A stretch of DNA of 64,000 nt from the NCBI GenBank assembly GCA_019359095.1, contig JAHHHZ010000035.1, forward strand, positions 1 through 64,000, given 5' to 3'. The translations under genes and the position numbers were made by a program. Positions 55,739-61,846 of the stretch are shown in pieces. The notes beneath the pieces are model-generated. The model saw only the letters and a list, made by a program, of their open reading frames with translations, was not told the DNA's origin and searched no databases. Position 1 is the stretch's first letter, and each line of letters begins with the position of its first letter. The stretch is from Pleurocapsa minor HA4230-MV1. Lineage in GTDB: Bacteria > Cyanobacteriota > Cyanobacteriia > Cyanobacteriales > Xenococcaceae.

Positions 55739-56188
55739 TTAACTCAAATTGCTCATATTAGGCAGAGTATTTACTGATTCATCTGGAGCTTGAGCTTCAG
55801 TTGAGGGTACTGTCTCAAGATCTCCTGTTAAGGCTTCTTTTTCGTTAATAGGAATGGGTTCAAATGATACTTTAGCTTCTAGCCAGGCAGTAAGTAAATT
55901 TGGTAGATTGCGCTTGAGCCAAAATAAAGCAGCCAGACGCGCAACAGGTTTGATATAACCTACCAGTACTTTCATAATCTTATTTAGTGGTGGGTTGTGC
56001 AACTTTTTGTTGGCATAGTTAATTGAACCCACATCAATTAGACTATCGATGATCAGTTTTAAAGCTACTTCTTCTCGTTCGACAATCTGCTGCAACAGCA
56101 AGGTAACATCACGCATCCGCTCTTGCTTTTTTAATTCTTCAGCAGCAATTGGTTTAGCGTTGAGAGATTCGTCTGAATATGTCAGCAT
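55739..56188 (-). CDS. hypothetical protein of cyanobacterial type, 149 residues
   Basis: The protein is helical in the first two thirds: VTLLLQQIVEREEVALKLII, DVGSINYANKKL, VLVGYIKPVARLAALFWLKR. A low-complexity acidic tail follows (SFEPIPINEKEALTGDLETV; APDESVNTLPNM). It has no signal peptide. It resembles conserved cyanobacterial proteins with no assigned role. It is convergent with the Crp-type gene. Confidence 0.65.
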   Translation of the reverse strand: MLTYSDESLNAKPIAAEELKKQERMRDVTLLLQQIVEREEVALKLIIDSLIDVGSINYANKKLHNPPLNKIMKVLVGYIKPVARLAALFWLKRNLPNLLTAWLEAKVSFEPIPINEKEALTGDLETVPSTEAQAPDESVNTLPNMSNLS

Positions 56189-56396
56189 ATAAAATACTAC
56201 TATTTAATTTACTAAATCTAAGATTTAAAGTTATTCTTCATTTTAGGTCTCTTTCCTCTGTCACACTGTCAGAGTAAATACAAGAACAAGAGCCAAATGT
56301 GCTAAACAAGCTAGAGCAACACATTATTTCGGCAATTAGAACCCTACGCAAAAAGGTTAGGATATTTAAACACAACTACTTAAATATTACAAAATT

Positions 56397-56440: not shown

Positions 56441-59400
56441 CTAATTCTGTCTCAATTTAACTTGTCTAATTTTAGCTGACTCATCGCACTGAGGTTGCTC
56501 TGTAAAATTTGCCAGAATAGGTTTCAGTTTTTCTGCCAGTATCTGAGAGTTTTCTGACTTAAGTAACAAGCTTGTATGACTGCCAGGAACTTCATCAACA
56601 TCAATTCCTCCCAATGCGAATCCTTGCCAACCGCCATAAGGATCAAAATAACCATAAGCCTGTCTAACCCGAGCGCGGAAAAGAGTTAATTTTCCCTCGT
56701 AAACAGTTGGTGTATATCGTTGATTTGCTTGAAAGTTAATATTTTGAATCTGTGAAATCAGCTTTTGCTCTGGCGAACTGAGCAAATTGGTTAGTTTCAA
56801 ATATTTCTGTTGCCAAGACCAAGGTATTTTAGATTGTAAAATATATTCAAATCGATCTGTAAAATAGGTCAATTTTTCTTTAAATGATAATTCGCTCAAA
56901 TTATTAAGGTGAATTGATAAGCGTTGTGGAAATGTCGATTTATCGCAACCGTTAGGCCCAAAACAATCAAATAACGCCAGAACAGCTACGGTTTGTCCTT
57001 GTCGTGACAGTTGCTGTGCCATTTCAAAAGCTACAAAACCCCCAAAAGAGTATCCTGCCAGAAAATACGGGCCTTGTGGTTGAATTAGTTTAATTTCTTC
57101 CAGATAACTACTAGCCATTTCTTCAATTGAAGTTAATGGTGTTTGTTTACCGTCTAAACCTCTTGCCTGTAAACCATAAATGGGTCGTTCTGTTCCTAAC
57201 GCTGCTGCTAACGTTTGGTAACCCAAAACATTTCCCCCAACAGCATGGATACAAAATAAAGGAGACTGATTGCCGTGGGGTTGAATACTAACCAAAGAAG
57301 ACCAAGAAGCTGACCATCCTCGCTCTAGCATCAAGTGTGCTAATTGAGCAATCGTCGGTGCTTGAAAAAGAGTTGCTAACGGTAAATTTTTACCAAAAGT
57401 GCTTTGAATTTGCTCGAATAAGCGTAATGCTAATAAAGAATTACCCCCCAGCTCGAAAAAGTTATCATCTCTACCAATTGGTTTAACATTTAAAATTCGC
57501 GACCAAATCTGACTTAACTGCCATTCCAATCGATCTTGGGGTGGGAGAAAATCGTTTTCTGTTTCTGGCTGATTTATTGGTAGTTTGAGTAGCGCTTGAC
57601 GGTTTACTTTACCATTGGGAGTTAAAGGTAAGGCATCTAAAAAAACAAATGCCGTAGGAACTGCATAGTCAGGTAATCTAGTTTTAAGAAAGTCGCGTAA
57701 TTGCCTACTCGTGATTGATTTTGATTTTAAGGTGCAGTAAGCTACTATGCTTGTCTGCTCAAAATTATTAGGAGCGATCGCCACTAAGGTTTCTTTGATT
57801 TCTGGATATTGTAGTAAAGTGGCTTCGATTTCTCCCAGTTCGACTCGAACACCGCGAATTTTCACTTGATTGTCAATACGTCCCAAAAATTCAATGTTGC
57901 CATCTTCAAGATAGCGACCTAAATCTCCAGTTTTATACAGACGAGCGGTTGCTGAACTACTAAAAGGATCGCGAATGAATTTACTAGCGGTTAATTCCTG
58001 CCGATGCAAATAACCTCTGGCTACACCAACTCCACCAATATAAAGTTCTCCTATAGCTCCAATCGGCAATAATTGTAATTCTTGGTCGAGGATATAAAAA
58101 GCTTGATTATTGAGAGGACGACCATAAGGAATCGTTTTAGCGGAGTCAGTTAAGTTCTGGATCGGATAGTAGATCGACCAAATTGATGCCTCTGTTGCGC
58201 CTCCTAAACTAATGATTTGTAGTTCTGGGTTGAGGGTTTGCAGCTGAAATACTAAGTTAGGACTAATGCGATCGCCACTCAGTAAAATTAAACGTAGAGA
58301 TTGGGGTAATGTTTGCTTATTAGTCACGATATAGTCGATCAGCAGCTCCATTAAAGCGGGGGCTGAATTCCAAATAGTAACTTTTGATTGGACGATTAAT
58401 TCTAGCCAATGTTCAGGATTAGGACAGTTTTCAGGTTGAGGAATGATCACCCTACCTCCAGATCCCAAAACTCCAAAAATATCGTAAACAGATAGATCGA
58501 AGCTTAAGGAAGATACGGCTAAAATGCGGTCTTGAGAGTTGACTTTAAAGCGCTGTTCGATGTCACATAAGGTATTGACCACACTATGATGTTCGATCTC
58601 GACTCCTTTGGGATTACCCGTTGAGCCAGAAGTGTAGATCGCATAAGCTAAATTATGGCTATTAACATTGTTAACAAGATTATTATTACTCGCTGCAATA
58701 TTTTGCCAGTCTCGATCTAAACAAACTATCTTGGCTGAAGTATTTGGTATGCGGTCATCTAATTTGCCTTGAGTTAACAGGATCTCGACACCCGCATCTT
58801 CTAATAGATAGGTTAGCCTAGCGCTCGGATAATTGGGGTCTAGAGGTAAATAAGCGCCACCTGCTTTGAGAATGGCAAATAGAGCGACAATCATTTCTAA
58901 GGAGCGATCGAGACATACACCAACTAAAGTTTCGGCTCTAACTCCTAAACTTTGAAGATAACGTGCCAATTGATTGGCTTTTTGCTCTAATTCTCCATAG
59001 GTTAAATACTCGCCTTGGCAAACAAGAGCCACTGCTTGCGGATTTTCGGCTGCTTTTGCTTCAAATAGTTGATGGAGACATAGCTCCTGCGGATAATTAC
59101 TATCGGTATAGTTCCACTCGCCTAGGATTTTCTGACGCTCACCAGCAGATATTAAAGGCAGTTGAGAAACGGGACACTGGGAATTGCTTGCAATTGCTTC
59201 TAATAAGATTGTCCATTGCTCAATCATCGTCTCAATGGTTTGAGCTGAAAATACCTCGGTGTTATAAGACCAAAAGTACTCTGCTTGTTGTCGATCGATA
59301 ATTAAAGTGAGATGACTGGAGGCTAAATTTGCTTGGAGTAGAGAATTTTGCCCTATTTGAGTTACAGCAACTGAAAAATTAGTTTGTCGAGCAGCTAATT

Positions 59401-60769
59401 TGGGATATCTAGTCATAACATCGCTTACATAAGTTTGATGTTGGTGGTTGAGCCTAAGTCTCTCAGTTACTGTTTTTAAGACGCTAGTAAAATTTTGTTC
59501 GAGTTCAAGTTTTAAATTGCAGGGTACATATCGAGCGAACCAGGGATCTTGAGTAGGTCGCTCAAATCCGAAACTGATGCGCTTATTGTTACTTAAACGT
59601 GCTAGATAAATCGCGAAGGCGGCAATAGTAACTTCTAGAGAGTCTCGAAGTAAATTAGTAACTGTTGAGCTTAGAGGTAATTTAACTTGTCGATAGTTAT
59701 TGCAACTTACTGAAGCTACTGGTATTTGCTCAAAAGGTAAACTTAATTGTCGGCACTTAGATAATTGTTTAAGCCAATAAGTTTCCGATGGTGCAATTTC
59801 ACTGGCAAGTTTAACTACTTCAGCAATTGATTTGGTGTCAATTTCTGGTAGCTTTTGTCCAACCTGCAATTGATAATCAGCAACTAATTCAGCAATTGAA
59901 ATAGTTTTATTTTGTTGGCTAACAATAGTTTCTAGGGCAATATTATGACTACCTGTAGCCACAATTAATTGTTGATTGGTAATCCCAACTATTGTTCCAG
60001 GCGATTGTGAAGATAAAGCTGTTAGCACTTTAACTTTAGTCACAATTACATAGTCTAGACCTGAATTTAAGTTTAATAATAGTTTTGCTGTAGCTAAAGG
60101 ATTGGGGTAATTACCAAAATCCAAACCTCTAACTAAATTATCAATTACTATCGCTGAACCATTAAAATCAATTATGCCCAGTGCTAGAGGTTTTTGATAT
60201 CGGGCGCAATAACTACGCTGTTGTAAATCTTGAGACTTAGTAGTTGTTTTTTTAGTTGCTAATTCTTCGATCAATTCCTGAAAAGAAACAATCGCCGCCT
60301 GATAACATTTTGCATTAAGAGTTAAAGCAGTTTCTGTAGGTTCAAGCTCTATTTTTACTTGCTTAAATATTTTTCCTGTATCTACCTCTAGATTCATTTC
60401 ATGCCAGGAGATACCATGCTGCTTTTCACCATTAATAATTGCTAAGGAAGTCGCATTTACTCCAGCATAAGTTGGCAATAGTGCATCATGATAGTTGATC
60501 GCTGTATCAGCCAGTTCTAAAACTTCTTGATTTAAGATAGTGTGATTGACAATACTAAATATATAGTTGCATCGCAGAGTAAATATTTGTTTGAATTGCC
60601 GAAGATTTTTAAAATAAAGAAGATTATGGTTTTTTGCCCAAAGAGCGATCGCTTTACTAGGAGAAATGATTGCTTTAATTTGATGATGATTACGAATTAG
60701 TATTTCGGCACATTCGATTAATAAATTTCCTTCTCCAATTAGTATGCAATTAAATGAAAACTTCTTCAT
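56441..60769 (-). CDS. one-module NRPS: formyltransferase - C half - A(Cys) - PCP - TE
   Basis: The protein has 1442 residues. Residues about 5-300 form a formyltransferase with its triad intact: N92, H94 in INYHDALLPTYAG and D130 in LEVDTGKIF. Residues about 318-545 resemble the C-terminal half of a condensation domain (ETYWLKQLSKCRQLSLP), without HHxxxDG. Residues about 565-1060 form a complete adenylation domain (YTSGSTGNPKG, YKTGDLGRY, NGKVNRQ). Its specificity positions read D758 L759 Y762 N801 L829 S831 L855 I863 W864 K1054, which I recall as the cysteine code. A carrier domain follows (FFELGGNSLLALRLF, Ser1111) and then a thioesterase (GYSFGGFVA, S1241; GSHTSLL). The product may be an N-formyl-Cys-derived molecule (inference). 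No other biosynthesis gene is adjacent. Confidence 0.9.
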   Translation of the reverse strand: MKKFSFNCILIGEGNLLIECAEILIRNHHQIKAIISPSKAIALWAKNHNLLYFKNLRQFKQIFTLRCNYIFSIVNHTILNQEVLELADTAINYHDALLPTYAGVNATSLAIINGEKQHGISWHEMNLEVDTGKIFKQVKIELEPTETALTLNAKCYQAAIVSFQELIEELATKKTTTKSQDLQQRSYCARYQKPLALGIIDFNGSAIVIDNLVRGLDFGNYPNPLATAKLLLNLNSGLDYVIVTKVKVLTALSSQSPGTIVGITNQQLIVATGSHNIALETIVSQQNKTISIAELVADYQLQVGQKLPEIDTKSIAEVVKLASEIAPSETYWLKQLSKCRQLSLPFEQIPVASVSCNNYRQVKLPLSSTVTNLLRDSLEVTIAAFAIYLARLSNNKRISFGFERPTQDPWFARYVPCNLKLELEQNFTSVLKTVTERLRLNHQHQTYVSDVMTRYPKLAARQTNFSVAVTQIGQNSLLQANLASSHLTLIIDRQQAEYFWSYNTEVFSAQTIETMIEQWTILLEAIASNSQCPVSQLPLISAGERQKILGEWNYTDSNYPQELCLHQLFEAKAAENPQAVALVCQGEYLTYGELEQKANQLARYLQSLGVRAETLVGVCLDRSLEMIVALFAILKAGGAYLPLDPNYPSARLTYLLEDAGVEILLTQGKLDDRIPNTSAKIVCLDRDWQNIAASNNNLVNNVNSHNLAYAIYTSGSTGNPKGVEIEHHSVVNTLCDIEQRFKVNSQDRILAVSSLSFDLSVYDIFGVLGSGGRVIIPQPENCPNPEHWLELIVQSKVTIWNSAPALMELLIDYIVTNKQTLPQSLRLILLSGDRISPNLVFQLQTLNPELQIISLGGATEASIWSIYYPIQNLTDSAKTIPYGRPLNNQAFYILDQELQLLPIGAIGELYIGGVGVARGYLHRQELTASKFIRDPFSSSATARLYKTGDLGRYLEDGNIEFLGRIDNQVKIRGVRVELGEIEATLLQYPEIKETLVAIAPNNFEQTSIVAYCTLKSKSITSRQLRDFLKTRLPDYAVPTAFVFLDALPLTPNGKVNRQALLKLPINQPETENDFLPPQDRLEWQLSQIWSRILNVKPIGRDDNFFELGGNSLLALRLFEQIQSTFGKNLPLATLFQAPTIAQLAHLMLERGWSASWSSLVSIQPHGNQSPLFCIHAVGGNVLGYQTLAAALGTERPIYGLQARGLDGKQTPLTSIEEMASSYLEEIKLIQPQGPYFLAGYSFGGFVAFEMAQQLSRQGQTVAVLALFDCFGPNGCDKSTFPQRLSIHLNNLSELSFKEKLTYFTDRFEYILQSKIPWSWQQKYLKLTNLLSSPEQKLISQIQNINFQANQRYTPTVYEGKLTLFRARVRQAYGYFDPYGGWQGFALGGIDVDEVPGSHTSLLLKSENSQILAEKLKPILANFTEQPQCDESAKIRQVKLRQN

Positions 60770-61294
60770 ATATTTTCTTAGCTAATCTTTTAATTTTCAT
60801 AAATTGATTAATCTATTAAACGGCACGACAAACTAGCAATTAGCACGCTTAAAATAACTAATCACAAAAACGTTTTATATTTATCGAAAACTAAGTAACA
60901 ATAAGGTTAGGATACTATTTTGATTTAATTATGCTTAATTTTTATATTTTCTAAATTAATTTTCAACTCAGATATTATCACATTAATATACTAAGTATAT
61001 TTTCTCATATTATTTTTATTTTTTATTTTCTCTTCATCGTATCTTTATGTCTAGGTATTTTGTGTGATTGCTTTTTCTCGTTACTTGCAGTGTTTTAAAA
61101 GCATGAAAAGCCTGAATCAAAGTAATTTGAGCTTACATATTCAGTTAATTTTTAATAAGCTTGTACGCATTTAAATTGTGTATTATGAGCTTAAACAATA
61201 AATCATTAAACTCTCTCCCTATCTCCCTATCTCCCTATCTCCCCGTCACCCCTTCAATCTCAATCAACAAATTAAATACCTGACAGCTTATGTT
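60770..61294. other. AT-rich spacer upstream of the NRPS gene
   Basis: There is no gene. Very AT-rich leader DNA probably contains the NRPS promoter. AAGGTTAGGATAC near 60903-60915 recalls the dispersed-repeat end. An 8-base-period run (CTCCCTAT)n lies at 61213-61246 before the DUF1400 gene end. Confidence 0.5.
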
Positions 61295-61846
61295 TCAGGG
61301 CATTTTAATGTATTGACTTGTCCCTTCGACAAACTGAGCAAAATTTTCTTGCAGTCTGACGAAAATCTTACCGTTGACGTATACATCTTGGGTTGGGTAA
61401 TTTTCTAATAATTCCAGCAAAGAAACCAAATTATTATCGCTAGCCGAAGCGATCAATGCTCCCCGCAAAGCCGTTAAGTTGGCTATTTCGGTTTTAGAAC
61501 TTACTACATTCTCAGTCTGGGATAAGATATATTCTCCTGGCGCTGTATTAAGCAAATCGGAGATTAGTTTATTGTTGGCAGGAAATTCTTGTTTTAAAAT
61601 CCAGCGAATCACAAATGGGTTCTGTTTGCCATGTTTTAATAAAGTATCTAATGCGGGGGAAACTTCGCCTGTATCGGCAAAATCCTGCAATTCTGTGATC
61701 GAAATTGATTGGGTTAATCCACCATAGGTAAAAATCACTTTTTCTGAACTTGAAGCTTGCCTAGGGGTCAAAGAAATTGCTATTCCTGCACTAATAAAAG
61801 CGATCGCAGTTTGTCTAAACCACTTAAATAATGTGCTTTTGCTCAT
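61295..61846 (-). CDS. DUF1400 domain protein, exported
   Basis: The protein has 183 residues. An N-terminal signal (about 1-33, TAIAFISAGIAISLTPRQAS) precedes a DUF1400 domain: EKVIFTYGGLTQSISITELQ, DFADTGEVSPALDTLLKHGK. DUF1400 normally heads a larger alpha/beta hydrolase in cyanobacteria. Here only the cap-type domain is present, so the protein is a short stand-alone version. Its function is unknown. Confidence 0.85.
   Translation of the reverse strand: MSKSTLFKWFRQTAIAFISAGIAISLTPRQASSSEKVIFTYGGLTQSISITELQDFADTGEVSPALDTLLKHGKQNPFVIRWILKQEFPANNKLISDLLNTAPGEYILSQTENVVSSKTEIANLTALRGALIASASDNNLVSLLELLENYPTQDVYVNGKIFVRLQENFAQFVEGTSQYIKMP

Follow-up and report, generated by a model that had tools for sequence, protein, structure and literature searches.

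A complete gene for a stand-alone, probably formylating nonribosomal peptide synthetase with a cysteine-type adenylation domain in Pleurocapsa minor

The cyanobacterium Pleurocapsa minor HA4230-MV1 carries, in the 64,000-nucleotide (nt) stretch analysed here (contig JAHHHZ010000035.1, positions 1 to 64,000; the window), a single minus-strand open reading frame (ORF) with an ATG start that encodes a nonribosomal peptide synthetase (NRPS) of 1,442 amino acids (aa). The protein joins a formyltransferase (F), the C-terminal lobe of a condensation (C) domain, an adenylation (A) domain, a carrier or thiolation (T) domain and a thioesterase (TE). The gene is complete and under purifying selection, and it is not a remnant. 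On balance, and with some reservation, we favour the reading that it encodes a selected stand-alone formylating NRPS that would charge its carrier with cysteine, formylate the amino group there and release N-formyl-cysteine or a derivative through the TE. Lone formylating NRPSs have already been predicted in other bacteria; what is new here is a conserved variant of the cysteine type. If the reading is right, one 4.3-kb gene, easily expressed and tested, would make up the whole pathway to a formylated cysteine, and the use of F domains would extend beyond the starting of long peptides. The protein also offers a minimal system for asking why F-linked NRPS modules retain half a C domain.

Domain architecture and predicted substrate

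A Pfam scan of the 1,442 residues matched every domain in the order given above: Formyl_trans_N (residues 77–157, 3e-16), Formyl_trans_C (198–297, 6e-10), Condensation (293–549, 1.5e-12, covering only positions 152–456 of the 456-position profile), AMP-binding (569–921, 1e-90), AMP-binding_C (980–1054), PP-binding (1084–1146) and Thioesterase (1170–1296). An earlier note on this DNA, made from the letters alone, had read the same order, together with an active-type F domain and a GGNSLL carrier motif, and both of these are present: N92, H94 and D130, the N-x-H...D arrangement that also marks LgrA, are all in place, which suggests an active F domain, and S1111 lies in the carrier motif. Across 21 aligned proteins, the window protein included, the asparagine and the histidine are invariant (21/21 each), the aspartate is kept in 20 (glutamate in locus L038) and the carrier serine in all 21. 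Nine proteins extend into the TE columns, and these keep the serine (9/9) and aspartate (9/9) of the triad throughout and the histidine in all except L052 (8/9). By sequence, the best solved relatives of the F part are a GDP-sugar formyltransferase and ArnA.

The nine readable positions of the A-domain pocket code are DLYNLSLIW. The tenth is the usual invariant lysine, appended here and not read from the sequence, and we take the resulting DLYNLSLIWK to be the textbook cysteine code. Dihydroaeruginoic acid synthetase, presumably PchE, ranks high among the solved A-domain matches, and over the code stretch the best solved match is BmdB, with all nine positions, read off the alignment, identical to those of BmdB A2. 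The BmdB structure contains a cysteine-vinylsulfonamide adenylate and BmdB uses cysteine in vitro (PMC8795117). Among sampled cyanobacterial proteins, the six with a C-lobe of the heterocyclisation (Cy) clade all carry DLYN[LM]SLIW (L071, L072, L073, L074, L078 and L094), in a sample drawn by likeness to the window A domain and therefore biased. The exact code recurs in five of the six orthologous copies of the window gene described below, the sixth (L060) having M for L at one position. With a code equal to that of a proven cysteine A domain, the cysteine-type code put forward in the earlier note is supported, and cysteine is strongly indicated as the predicted substrate.

The half condensation domain

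About 265 residues separate the F and A domains, which leaves no room for a C domain of 456 profile positions, and a motif search found no HHxxxDG-like motif in the 520 residues preceding the A domain. The protein has neither the N-lobe with HHxxxDG of a complete C domain nor a Cy domain with DxxxxD and GDFT, and Pfam coverage that begins at profile position 152 agrees with the earlier description of a C-terminal half only.

The half domain is not, as had been supposed, a peculiarity of the window gene. At least 12 of 386 genomes of the phylum, the window's own included, match the first 400 residues at E values up to 1e-30, with at most four first-look candidates scored per genome, and a C-lobe-like stretch follows the F domain in all 11 of the others: ten have both in a single frame, while in L037 the C-lobe opens the following frame. 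The weakest such matches score 17.0 bits (L045) and 17.5 bits (L046); Pfam covers only profile positions 391–456 in L037 and 194–331 in L040, where a methyltransferase domain sits between the C-lobe and the A domain. In a tree of 54 C-lobes (two of 56 segments, L014 and L040, were dropped, and the split-A modules L041–L046 and L049 were left aside), all 13 F-linked lobes and L005 from the window's own genome form one clade (98/92), which is nested among C-domain groups, lies apart from the Cy clade (100/100) and takes in Legionella and Bradyrhizobium. Several branches of the tree are long, the program warns that the joining of L052 and L053 may be false, and the group labels were set by motif searches that left 13 of 56 rows (11 among the 54 lobes of the tree) unlabelled.

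Pairwise identities among 14 proteins are correlated between F and C-lobe (r 0.89), C-lobe and A (0.85) and F and A (0.81), over 91 pairs that are not independent of one another. This joint movement of F and C-lobe, together with the clade, points to a half domain inherited with the formyltransferase: most likely, judging by these comparisons, it arrived with the F domain and there was no late loss in the window gene. The cysteine-type A domain, of a kind that occurs behind Cy domains, also raised the possibility of a Cy-domain remnant, which was rejected on the missing GDFT at the aligned place and the position of the C-lobe in another clade. A bolder proposal, which we consider unlikely, sees in the F-linked C-lobe an NRPS domain subtype that has gone unrecognised, whose own function would be to dock the carrier to the F domain or to steer release, and which is kept, minus its N-lobe, in Legionella and Bradyrhizobium as well as in cyanobacteria; in this genus it would be part of a one-gene cassette, complete in itself, for an N-formyl-cysteine metabolite acting as a thiol or metal ligand.

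Orthologues, selection and insertion site

The closest relatives with the full architecture, compared over the first 400 residues, come from Hyellaceae cyanobacterium CSU_1_1 (L033, 79% identity) and Pleurocapsa sp. CCALA 161 (L034, 77%); a second CCALA 161 copy (L035, 58%) has its start cut by a contig end. Identical 500-bp test stretches make G402 the apparent genome of L033 and G401 that of L034 and L035. A search of the family matched six of 27 genomes, five of them among the 13 same-genus genomes; the remaining match, L062 in G387, is part of an NRPS locus of several genes. In all, the order F-(C-lobe)-A-T-TE was found in six copies (window, L033, L034, L035, L060 and L061) in five genomes and at four sites, one shared by three genomes (the window site) and one each for L035, L060 and L061. 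The neighbours of L060 and L061 are entirely different from those at the window site.

Ratios of nonsynonymous to synonymous change (dN/dS), from a Nei–Gojobori script, are 0.17 (L033) and 0.18 (L034) against the window gene at a dS of 0.60, and 0.21, 0.19 and 0.17 for pairs with L035, L060 and L061, for which dS exceeds 1.3. The C-lobe gives 0.28 in both window comparisons (L033 and L034), and the only part above it is the C-terminal subdomain of the formyltransferase against L033 (0.36).

The module was described earlier as free of linked modules, and this agrees with its surroundings. A search with the whole protein turned up no further NRPS gene on the contig of the window, and no other frame matching the window domains lies within the stretches fetched around L033/L063, L034/L064, L060 and L061. 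Near L035/L065, a one-module NRPS without an F domain lies about 12 kb downstream, and the other side of L035 ends at the contig end.

At the window site the gene is flanked by genes of 183 and 149 aa, each of which has a match in 13/13 same-genus genomes. The two are adjacent, with 118–152 bp between them, in nine of the 13 (an empty site), and 4,811–5,109 bp apart with the NRPS gene inside in three (window, L033 and L034); the site of G070, where the 183-aa gene has just a 37% match, on a different contig, cannot be judged. G400 and G408, both among the nine with an empty site, carry the NRPS gene at another place. The clean empty site indicates that the gene was gained or lost whole, as a unit. 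An imperfect 16-nt direct repeat brackets the gene (56349–56364 and 60899–60914); it was considered as a transposition footprint and is taken as chance, as L033 and L034 do not keep it upstream, the side covered by the alignment.

Relation to known systems

Formylation by F domains has been described for only three nonribosomal peptides, always in the initiation module (PMC8949500). F domains sit in the loading modules of linear gramicidin, rhizopodin, oxazolomycin and conglobatin, with ring closure proposed (PMC4504003), and further F loading modules are on record (PMC12858407, PMC3252866). The view taken in the earlier note, that formylating NRPSs only start multi-module lines, nevertheless does not hold. 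One-module Legionella NRPSs were predicted in 2016 to make an N-formyl amino acid, with clusters G and I ending in a TE and giving a linear or cyclic product (PMC5126622). In L039 (2928–8000) and L062 (5699–10849), moreover, a full Condensation match (profile positions 3–452 and 3–456) precedes the F domain, C-lobe and A-T in one protein, so that the unit of F and C-lobe is found beyond the opening position of a line as well. The parts of PMC1894796, PMC10212144 and PMC8776678 that were covered make no mention of an F-linked half C domain. A literature search, with most subscription journals outside its scope, returned neither a cysteine-type stand-alone formylating NRPS nor an F-linked C-lobe, and no mention of N-formylcysteine together with 'nonribosomal'.

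The window protein shares with the Legionella clusters G and I the single module, the predicted N-formyl amino acid and release by a TE, all in one F-...-A-T-TE protein. One-module F genes were found on two Legionella plasmids (L050 and L053) and on a Bradyrhizobium plasmid, where the TE match is partial. L050 and L053, possible members of clusters G or I, have the domain order of the window protein and are 33–40% identical to it in F and A; the C-lobe is matched by Pfam in L050 (35.2 bits), whereas in L053 it is matched by a custom C-lobe profile only (31.9 bits). Their A codes, DAWQFGLID and DLPEMGEVT, differ from that of the window protein and are not of the cysteine type.

LgrA (F-A-T) likewise has a formyltransferase fused before A-T, and the model there is formylation of the carrier-bound amino acid (PMC4504003). 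LgrA, however, opens a multi-module line, with C-A-T modules after the T domain in the protein or locus, whereas in the window protein the T domain is followed by the protein's own TE. The A match begins at residue 205–207 in LgrA chains and at about 565 in the window protein, where F is not joined directly to A because the C-terminal subdomain of the formyltransferase and the C-lobe intervene.

Among cyanobacterial multi-module NRPSs, L036, L038, L039 and L062 share the unit of F and C-lobe, with C-lobes in the window's clade, but are followed by more C-A-T modules or NRPS genes and have other A codes. L036 and L038 begin with the F domain, its motif lying at residues 93 and 103, and have a full C domain further on (in L038 by motif only). 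Modules of the Cy-A(Cys)-T type (BmdB, dihydroaeruginoic acid synthetase) and the cyanobacterial Cy-A-T-TE proteins L072 and L073 share the cysteine-type A domain, and the last two also end in a TE as the window protein does, but all have a Cy-type domain where the window protein has F and a C-lobe of another clade.

Relatives without a catalytic formyltransferase also exist. In the window's own genome, contig C2 (L096:4880–8770) encodes a 1,296-aa C-lobe-A-T-TE protein with the A code DAEDIGTVV (read on L005), whose C-lobe is the best-scoring non-orthologous match to that of the window; the alignment shows a remnant of the formyltransferase C-terminal part that escapes Pfam at E 0.001. Two further one-module genes, L097:4758–8318 and one at about 37.9–41 kb of contig C26 of the window's own genome (L006), lack a formyltransferase and have just a C-lobe ahead of A-T-TE. 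In the tree these two lobes pair apart from the others (100/100), next to ordinary C domains, which may reflect an independent loss of the N-lobe. A similar 305-aa gene, which by eye we take to resemble a desaturase or ketolase, lies about 3.5 kb from the C-lobe-A-T-TE gene in both the window genome (L096:12083–13000) and Pleurocapsa CCALA 161 (L097:214–1131); this may be chance.

Proposed mechanism and alternatives

In the mechanism that we propose, the A domain would activate L-cysteine and load it onto the carrier at S1111, a step well supported by the code and the conserved residues. The F domain, with formyl-folate as donor, would formylate the amino group of the carrier-bound cysteine, as we infer from the intact residues and by analogy with linear gramicidin. 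The TE (S1241/D1268/H1398) would free the product, most simply by hydrolysis to N-formyl-L-cysteine; this last step is put forward tentatively, with transfer and ring formation as the alternatives. With the C domain lacking its catalytic half, no peptide bond would be made in cis, and the retained lobe might be a structural platform between F and A, inherited with the formyltransferase, a guess prompted by its constant place and fast change. The product would then be N-formyl-cysteine or a derivative. N-formylcysteine appears as a substrate name in bacterial annotation, Bacillus subtilis defB having been called N-formylcysteine deformylase (PMC4703394).

Several points weigh against this scheme. 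A TE may equally close a ring, oligomerise its substrate or pass it to another nucleophile. The relative on contig C2, with no catalytic formyltransferase, implies that at least one relative can do without formylation. AlphaFold2 models of residues 1–1070 and of a 267-aa stretch with the C-lobe (four sequences each) have mean pLDDT values of 35 and 46 and do not back the platform role of the C-lobe. Finally, the closest pair of orthologues, L033 and L034, is under looser constraint, with a dN/dS of 0.29 at a dS of 0.13 and values of 0.34–0.40 in the catalytic formyltransferase, the C-lobe and the TE.

The alternative that survives best keeps the same loading and formylation and has the TE pass the N-formyl-cysteinyl group on to a separate alcohol, amine or sugar; an ester, an amide or a low-molecular-weight thiol would result in place of the free acid. 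A-T-TE proteins with the code DVWHISLID, which we take to be a serine code, occur among the sampled cyanobacteria (L084 and L089), and in shinorine synthesis an NRPS-like enzyme without a C domain attaches an amino acid to an outside acceptor (PMC3252866). Such a transfer seems somewhat unlikely here, as no acceptor-making gene was seen travelling with the NRPS gene, whose neighbours vary by site. We doubt more strongly that the thiol attacks the formyl carbon to give a 2-H thiazoline ring, or that the TE makes a cyclic or oligomeric thioester. Precedents have been proposed for conglobatin, where, as in oxazolomycin, a formylated glycine starter would be built into an oxazole ring (PMC4504003), and for the linear or cyclic products of the Legionella one-module proteins (PMC5126622), and the A domain is of a type found behind Cy domains; the C-lobe, however, has neither the GDFT nor the clade of such domains.

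A loading module acting in trans for another NRPS or polyketide synthase (PKS) of the cell would find possible partners in the further NRPS genes of this genome, with many matches at 520–556 kb of contig C36 (G000:C36), but we hold this to be highly improbable, given that the window protein has its own TE, whereas the F proteins of multi-gene loci (L036, L038, L039 and L062) end in T without one. That the gene is a non-functional remnant of a larger NRPS, as its half C domain and the looser constraint between L033 and L034 might suggest, is almost certainly wrong in view of the same half domain in a clade across phyla, the open frames and conserved residues of six copies, the low dN/dS against the window gene and the clean empty site.

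Table 1 Features of the NRPS gene and its borders in the window
Feature	Position	Strand	Basis
F-(half C)-A-T-TE NRPS, entire gene, 1,442 aa	56441..60769	-	ORF and Pfam
Formyltransferase catalytic subdomain, residues ~1–175, N92/H94/D130	60245..60769	-	Pfam Formyl_trans_N and residue alignment
Formyltransferase C-terminal subdomain, residues ~190–300	59870..60202	-	Pfam Formyl_trans_C
Condensation-domain C-terminal lobe, formyltransferase-linked type, without HHxxxDG half, residues ~305–550	59120..59857	-	Pfam Condensation and tree
Adenylation core, cysteine-type code DLYNLSLIW, residues ~565–955	57905..59077	-	Pfam, code and BmdB alignment
Adenylation small C-terminal subdomain, residues ~956–1070	57560..57904	-	Pfam AMP-binding_C
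Carrier (thiolation) domain, S1111, residues ~1075–1150	57320..57547	-	Pfam PP-binding
Thioesterase domain, S1241/D1268/H1398, residues ~1155–1430	56480..57307	-	Pfam Thioesterase and residue alignment
Downstream neighbour, 149 aa, insertion-site border, not thought part of the pathway	55739..56188	-	Same-genus comparison
Upstream neighbour, 183 aa, other insertion-site border	61295..61846	-	Same-genus comparison

Leader and further observations

The long AT-rich leader had been read in the earlier note as a sign of regulation. Its composition is as described, but the regulation found no support: the 525 bp upstream of the gene contain four promoter-like matches, against a mean of 4.3 in shuffled sequence, and no Rfam match at the gathering threshold. 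By alignment, the leader is partly alike in three genomes. Upstream of the gene, at 61211–61242, lies an 8-nt tandem repeat (CTATCTCC-like) that the aligned relatives do not show.

Downstream of the orthologue L060, at a distance of about 0.8 kb, a frame (L060:4062–5843) resembles, judged from the start of its sequence, a group II intron reverse transcriptase/maturase. In L041–L046, from the order of the window genome, and in L049, from a Ruegeria plasmid, the A-domain match of formyltransferase-linked modules is split by about 300–400 residues; the insert in L049 is a luciferase-like monooxygenase of the MupA/Atu3671 type, and genes for a PKS and a phosphopantetheinyl transferase lie nearby.

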